DNA of 64,000 nt, taken from NCBI GenBank assembly GCA_016192995.1, contig JACPTB010000005.1:62001-126000 (forward strand), in the 5' to 3' direction. This stretch comes from Candidatus Woesearchaeota archaeon. Its GTDB lineage: Archaea; Nanobdellota; Nanobdellia; Woesearchaeales; DSVV01. Below are positions 16,814 through 55,008 of the stretch, piece after piece; position 1 is the first letter of the stretch; every line of letters begins with the position of its first letter. Both the position numbers and the translations under genes were made by a program. Under the pieces are notes generated by a model. That model did not search any database. It saw only the letters and a list, made by a program, of their open reading frames with translations, and was not told the origin of the DNA.

Positions 16814-16823
16814 CTTTATAAAT
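16814..16823 (+). promoter_or_regulatory. TATA box of tRNA-Val
   Basis: CTTTATAAAT lies about 30 bases before the first tRNA nucleotide, the expected spacing for archaeal TBP/TFB-dependent transcription. Confidence 0.6.
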
Positions 16824-16848: not shown

Positions 16849-17032
16849 GGACTCATAGTTCAGTGGCTAGAACGTCGCCCTTACAAGGCGAAGGTCACCG
16901 GTTCAAGTCCGGGAACTGGTTACGCTCGGTTCACACGCAACGTGCGACATTCGCTTGCTCCGCAAGCTCAACTCGACAAAATCGAGTTATAGAGTTATAT
17001 ATCAATTCCTGGTGAAAGTCCGGTTGGGTCCA
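16849..17032 (+). tRNA. tRNA-Val(TAC) with a 111-nt intron in the T loop
   Basis: Exon 1 is 16849-16907, exon 2 is 17019-17032; spliced length is 73 nt. Arms: acceptor GGACTCA/TGGGTCC (one G-T), D stem GTTC/GAAC, anticodon stem TCGCC/GGCGA with loop CTTACAA (anticodon TAC), T stem ACCGG/CCGGT with loop TTCAAGT. The loop is interrupted after G59. A canonical bulge-helix-bulge is formed: outer helix the T stem, central helix TTCA/TGAA, both bulges AGT, inner helix CCGGGAA/TTCCTGG. The intron also holds hairpins GCTTGC/GCAAGC and AACTCGA/TCGAGTT. CCA is not encoded. Non-canonical intron sites such as 59/60 are known in some archaea but rare. Confidence 0.92.
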
Positions 17033-17064
17033 TATTTTTATATTCATTAAAGGACACTTAGAAC

Positions 17065-54621: not shown

Positions 54622-54774
54622 AAAGTCCCATTTTTAAAAATATAAAAATACGGACCTGGCGAGATTCGAAGTCCCGCAACCTTTTACGTTCGTAAAAGCT
54701 TGACCAAAAAACAGCGATGGGACATAAAGTCCCATTTTTAAAAATATGAAAATACGGACCTGGCGAGATTCGAA
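54600..54774. repeat. Tandem duplication joining tRNA 3' end and gene start
   Basis: Two near-identical 71-base copies (54600-54670, 54704-54774) spaced 104 bases. Each contains the start region of the glycosidase-like gene (palindrome ATGGGAC-ATAAA-GTCCCAT) and the last 19 bases of the tRNA-Arg gene. Only the right copy is joined to the tRNA; the left one has a mutated T-arm sequence (TTCGAAGTCCCGCAAC). Confidence 0.85.
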
Positions 54775-55008
54775 CTCGCGATCTACAGCTAGCTCCTTAG
54801 AGAACTTTGCAAAATTATGGTTACTGCCTATTTTGTGAGCATTTTCGAAAGACTTATCGAGCAATTTTCGAGGTTCCAGAGAGAAAATTGCTTTGTTAAA
54901 CAGAGATCTCAATGCGAACTGGCAGTAACCCGAGCTTTGCGAGTATTTTGCAAAGTTCTCCTTAAGTAATAGGAGGCTGTCGCCTTATCCAGACTGGGCC
55001 ACAGGTCC
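54755..55008 (-). tRNA. tRNA-Arg(CCT) with a 179-nt intron carrying a MITE
   Basis: Exon 1 is 55008-54970, exon 2 is 54790-54755; the intron lies after A37. Acceptor GGACCTG/CAGGTCC, anticodon stem ACAGC/GCTGT, loop CTCCTAA with anticodon CCT, T arm GCGAG-TTCGAAT-CTCGC, discriminator G. The bulge-helix-bulge has central helix CTCC/GGAG with bulges TAT and CTA. The ancestral intron was 14 nt; a family 2 MITE of 161 bp plus 4-bp duplication CTTA accounts for the rest. Confidence 0.93.
54800..54960. mobile_element. Family 2 MITE within a tRNA intron
   Basis: 161 bp with GAGAACTTTGCAAAAT and ATTTTGCAAAGTTCTC ends, flanked by the 4-bp duplication CTTA (54796-54799, 54961-54964). It leaves the splice helix and bulges intact. 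Confidence 0.92.

Follow-up and report, generated by a model that had tools for sequence, protein, structure and literature searches.

A tRNA-Val(UAC) gene with a bulge-helix-bulge intron in the T loop and recurrent T-loop introns in an order of Woesearchaeota-related archaea

Introduction

Position 59/60 is listed among the non-canonical positions of archaeal tRNA introns (PMC4090602), and bulge-helix-bulge (BHB) motifs are described to occur in the T loop (PMC6379350). As regards the splicing endonuclease EndA, the alpha4 enzyme is stated to cut canonical BHB motifs only (PMC4033280), and efficient removal of relaxed motifs is attributed only to the (alpha-beta)2 and epsilon2 enzymes, which are given for two small archaea, Nanoarchaeum equitans and ARMAN-2, respectively (PMC6379350). 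Among the titles and abstracts listed by a literature search on Woesearchaeota tRNA introns and DPANN BHB introns, none deals with the subject treated here, which, at partial coverage, is weak evidence of novelty. Since 59/60 is already listed, the gene described below adds to a known class of non-canonical introns and, though a neat example, is ordinary within it. More unusual is its lineage, in which one short, loop-less EndA gene goes together with many T-loop introns whose 5' motifs are mostly relaxed.

Results

The gene was found in a window of 64,000 nucleotides from a Woesearchaeota-related genome of 1,617,290 bases (16 contigs, 99.6% completeness); all positions refer to this window. 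An aIF6-like protein of the genome has its three best named matches, at 40-43% identity, in Woesearchaeota records, and a fourth match of 29% identity carries the label Thaumarchaeota. Reading of the sequence identified 16849-17032 (+) as a tRNA-Val(UAC) gene that carries an intron of 111 nt in the T loop. The 5' exon (16849-16907) comprises tRNA positions 1-59, ends in ACCGG TTCAAG and is covered by ARAGORN and by a partial match to RF00005 (16856-16913). The 3' exon (17019-17032, T CCGGT TGGGTCC A), again seen in the sequence and by ARAGORN, supplies positions 60-73, that is U60, the 3' strands of the T stem and the acceptor stem, and A73 (17032). Together they form the acceptor stem GGACTCA/TGGGTCC (16849-16855 with 17025-17031) and the T stem ACCGG/CCGGT (16897-16901 with 17020-17024, 5/5 pairs), and the T-loop bases, TTCAAG and T, lie on either side of the intron. 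Spliced in silico, the exons gave a 73-nt tRNA-Val(tac) with a full cloverleaf that was recognised by ARAGORN, with the anticodon TAC (16882-16884) at position 34. A TATA-like box, TTTATAAA (16815-16823, ~26-34 nt upstream of the tRNA start), came out of a motif scan as a putative promoter element, and a T-rich run directly 3' of the gene (17033-17040) is a possible terminator. A sequence-only reading of the window had placed the interruption at 59/60, which proved exact to the base for both exons and the junction, and had warned that a tRNA finder may miss the gene; indeed, ARAGORN made no tRNA call on the unspliced gene with the intron option on or off, and Rfam RF00005 covered only model positions 8-63 at the locus (41.9 bits).

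The intron (16908-17018, +) has no second copy in the genome and is bordered by a strict 3-4-3 BHB, in which the central, outer and inner helices each pair 4/4 in the scored window. The outer helix is the 5-bp T stem itself (16897-16901/17020-17024). T-loop positions 54-57 pair with the 3' end of the intron to form the central helix TTCA/TGAA (16902-16905/17013-17016, 4/4 pairs), whose intron partner covaries in relatives, and the inner helix CCGGGAA/TTCCTGG (16909-16915/17006-17012) is complete in sequence and fold with 7/7 bp. Both bulges read AGT (16906-16908 and 17017-17019). Cut sites were placed by the established BHB rule, which predicts cleavage AG^T at 16907/16908 and at 17018/17019; the junction 59/60 follows from this cutting in the bulge, with numbering taken from the T loop TTCAAGT. 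The sequence-only reading thus proved right in full on the length of 111 nt, on the canonical BHB with two matching AGT bulges, and on the T stem acting as its outer helix.

Such an arrangement is rare by chance. When the 300 nt that follow the 5' exon were dinucleotide-shuffled, the 12-position match of T stem and acceptor stem (G-U allowed) arose in 11 of 20,000 cases, and in 1 of 20,000 when the 4-bp central helix was required as well (16/16); the 7-bp inner helix was not demanded. The 184-nt transcript folded better than 200 of 200 shuffles (z -3.7). The BHB form amounted to -42.9 kcal/mol and the minimum free energy fold, which leaves TTCA/TGAA open, to -43.2 kcal/mol; with this difference of 0.3 kcal/mol in disfavour of the BHB form, the central helix is not predicted from energy alone. 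Automatic BHB enumeration with a crude score gave 12,511 candidates over 19 loci, and among the top three per locus, which were compared, the 111-nt intron was the sole 4/4/4 motif. An alternative intron of 92 nt reached an equal crude score (34) but yields an over-long tRNA, and the 111-nt intron was preferred because it leaves a standard 73-nt cloverleaf. Because the scan performed poorly at several other loci, such as Lys (L008), Val(GAC) (L016) and Asn (L019), it was not used to call introns there.

The same site was followed in relatives. With at most one mismatch, a Val(UAC) arm pattern found 38 places in 35 of 79 genomes. Thirty loci were fetched and two (L039, L063) were left out of the counts because the pattern had matched inside non-tRNA sequence, so that 28 tRNA-Val loci remained, including the present gene and a few that are Val(CAC) by anticodon. 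An intron occupies the T-loop site in eleven of these (the present gene and 10 others), and the T loop is uninterrupted in the other 17. A phylum-wide search with zero mismatch matched 22 of 147 genomes and added 14 loci: T-loop introns occurred in two of the nine from the same order (L109, counted as intron-bearing although its 3' exon was not located, and L110) and in none of the five from other orders of the class. Overall, 13 of 37 tRNA-Val loci within the order and 0 of 5 from other orders have such an intron, fractions that differ from whole-gene intron rates since the pattern requires an unbroken stretch from anticodon to T loop and leaves 37/38 introns uncounted. A genome of the same family (G005) has an intact gene (L049), and the intron is thus not conserved within the family.

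All 11 loci of the first search keep 5/5 T-stem pairs across the intron, with stem sequences that differ and intron lengths between 22 and 111 nt. Ten of them also have a complete central helix (4/4 pairs); the exception, L042, has a G-A mismatch. Where position 57 is A, the intron partner is T (3/3), and where it is G (n = 8) the partner is C in five, T in two and an unpaired A in one. The intron base opposite position 57 therefore usually follows the exon base, a pattern of covariation that comes mainly from this one variable position. On the other side of the motif, an unbroken run of four pairs directly inside the 5' bulge is found in 3/11 (the present gene, L051 and L062), and the remaining 8/11 are relaxed there. 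For L058, the script parse (16-nt intron, T stem 3/5) was set aside and a by-eye reading of 33 nt was used; the script acceptor of L054 (5/7 pairs) is unreliable because that gene is also interrupted upstream. At L048 and L110, the T loop of a glycine-like tRNA gene next to the valine gene seems to be interrupted as well.

Genes for both splicing endonuclease and ligase are encoded in the genome. A single EndA gene, an ORF of 182 aa, is the sole match to both PF01974 and PF02778, and a single RtcB gene was found with PF01139 (5.3e-172). The EndA gene (L028) adjoins a divergent gene that resembles tRNase Z. EndA retains conserved residues of catalytic type, Y118, H128 and K159, and it is predicted from its sequence to be of the alpha4 type, a homotetramer. 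Alternatively, a heteromeric or loop-bearing EndA could excise the intron. This would fit the (alpha-beta)2 and epsilon2 enzymes given for N. equitans and ARMAN-2 (PMC6379350), and the closest solved chain by score is indeed the N. equitans alpha subunit (3iey_A, 2.7e-33), which carries six extra residues ahead of the conserved histidine. However, the alignment with Methanocaldococcus jannaschii EndA (1a79, E 2.9e-32) has no insertion in its aligned part; ARMAN-2 EndA (4fz2) has extra residues at the presumed matching place of the loop. The insertion of broad-specificity EndA, a CSL or ASL loop with a conserved lysine close to the active site, was seen neither in the 1a79 alignment nor in one of 30 EndA proteins of the order (the present one plus 29 retrieved from among 77 places), the placement of the loop being our own reading. 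Against a second subunit stands also that the one PF01974 and the one PF02778 match in the genome fall in the same ORF, and that exactly one PF01974 match was found in 73 of the 79 genomes, with two matches in two genomes and none in four. One of the two-match genomes (G047) apparently has one gene cut by contig ends; the sole match in G055 is weak and below the cut-off. Among the 11 genomes with T-loop introns in the set of 28 loci, 10 have one PF01974 match and one (G064) has none. We therefore regard a heteromeric or loop-bearing enzyme as unlikely and retain the predicted homotetramer.

RF00005 gave 27 matches in the genome at E <= 0.001, rising to 33 at E <= 10, and four of the six weaker matches were read as tRNA genes for Gly (UCC), Phe, Arg (UCU) and Arg (CCU), the last with a match that spans the T arm only; 31 tRNA genes were seen in total. 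The valine set consists of Val(GAC) (L016) and the interrupted Val(UAC), and of the 965 valine codons among the 15,846 codons of 46 ORFs in the window, 244 are GTA. A second complete tRNA-Val(UAC) gene, which the sequence-only reading had named as the finding that would speak against it, did not turn up with RF00005 at E <= 10 or with the arm pattern at up to one mismatch. These data bear on the possibility that the locus is a disrupted pseudogene and that GUA codons are read by another tRNA. ARAGORN and an ordinary cloverleaf search do reject the unspliced gene, as expected for a pseudogene, but all exon bases are intact and give a perfect tRNA when spliced, no other Val(UAC) gene was found, GUA codons are in use, and many relatives carry an intron at this site; on these grounds the pseudogene was rejected as very improbable. 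Equally improbable is that the insert, long and well structured as it is, represents an element with mobility or an RNA function (a C/D box sRNA, a group I intron or a transposed repeat) instead of a plain BHB intron, since it contains no C box (<=1 mismatch) and no D box, has no Rfam match apart from tRNA, and finds only a 20-base next best match in the genome (E 0.54); such a feature would be compatible with BHB splicing anyway.

Further tRNA genes of the genome are interrupted. By sequence reading, the 59/60 site also carries introns in Phe (L034, 31 nt) and Asp (L027, 39 nt). The Phe intron keeps the 4-bp central helix and the 3' bulge but has an extra A opposite the 5' bulge, and in Asp the central helix is absent from the fold; the hard constraints used in RNAfold for these two and for the introns of relatives did not always enforce the central helix. 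Gly(UCC) has a D-loop intron, Arg(UCU) an intron in the anticodon stem, and Asn (L019), by hand reading only, one near 53/54. The tRNA-Arg(CCU) gene (54755-55008, -) contains a structured anticodon-loop intron of ~163 nt and is mis-named tRNA-Trp by ARAGORN with introns allowed. Its 3' end and trailer are doubled in a 77-nt direct repeat (54600-54676/54704-54780, -; 96% identical, 104 apart), and stray tRNA 3' fragments also lie downstream of tRNA-Gly(UCC) (L033) and of tRNA-Val in the relatives L046 and L050; these may have been left by elements that integrate at the 3' ends of tRNA genes. A hairpin-like motif, ATTCGTAC...GTACTTG, was noticed by eye shortly 3' of tRNA genes at L001, L011, L033 and L050. 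The tRNA-Trp intron (L023) has GATGA- and CTGA-like boxes; a C/D guide RNA is expected within archaeal tRNA-Trp introns. A tRNA-Pro gene was not found with RF00005 at E <= 10 or with a D-arm pattern, and it may be more heavily disrupted.

Discussion

Taken together, the locus almost certainly encodes a functional archaeal tRNA-Val(UAC), interrupted once by a BHB intron in the non-canonical position 59/60. From the sequence we infer that the tRNA is transcribed, cleaved, ligated and charged. The pre-tRNA would be transcribed as a single unit and would build its strict BHB from the T stem, the T-loop UUCA and the intron UGAA; the single EndA, predicted to be alpha4, would cleave in both AGU bulges, and RtcB would ligate position 59 to 60 and thereby restore the T loop UUCAAGU. 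The mature tRNA would decode GUA and probably also GUG. The gene is recovered here for an uncultured archaeon, and since a common finder misses such a tRNA, the tRNA gaps apparent in genomes of this kind may in part be artefacts of the search. tRNAscan-SE 2.0 in archaeal mode, whose BHB step lengthens candidates by 60 nt (PMC8450103), would probably miss this gene or call it in part, as the 3' exon ends 119 nt beyond the end of the Rfam match.

The Val intron is strict, and the predicted alpha4 enzyme should therefore cut it under the textbook rule. That rule is strained by the relaxed introns of relatives and by Phe and Asp in the same genome. We tentatively consider, as a possible but rather doubtful reading, that introns favour the T loop in the order, because the near-universal UUCR can always supply half of the central helix, and that a single loop-less EndA removes introns with a relaxed 5' side. 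If true, this would break the reported link of non-canonical or relaxed introns with heteromeric, epsilon2 or CSL/ASL-bearing enzymes. The frequent T-loop introns together with a single predicted alpha4-type EndA offer a direct test of the enzyme requirement of relaxed introns, and this order-wide combination is the part that deserves the attention of specialists.

How does the gene compare with known systems? The tRNAs of Thermoproteales with multiple introns, as described in PMC4090602 and PMC8450103, share with this genome the many non-canonical introns per genome, but the Val intron is without sequence copies elsewhere in its genome and so gives no sign of intron transposition. The canonical BHB intron at 37/38 has the same 3-4-3 motif and the same enzymes are expected to act on it, whereas here the intron lies in the T loop, the T stem serves as outer helix and the central helix makes use of the conserved TTCR. 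Closest are the 59/60 introns of archaea listed in PMC4090602, with the same insertion point, a BHB at the junction and presumed splicing by EndA; in comparison with these, the present case stands out by its Woesearchaeota-related genome, its single short EndA gene and its long intron of 111 nt.
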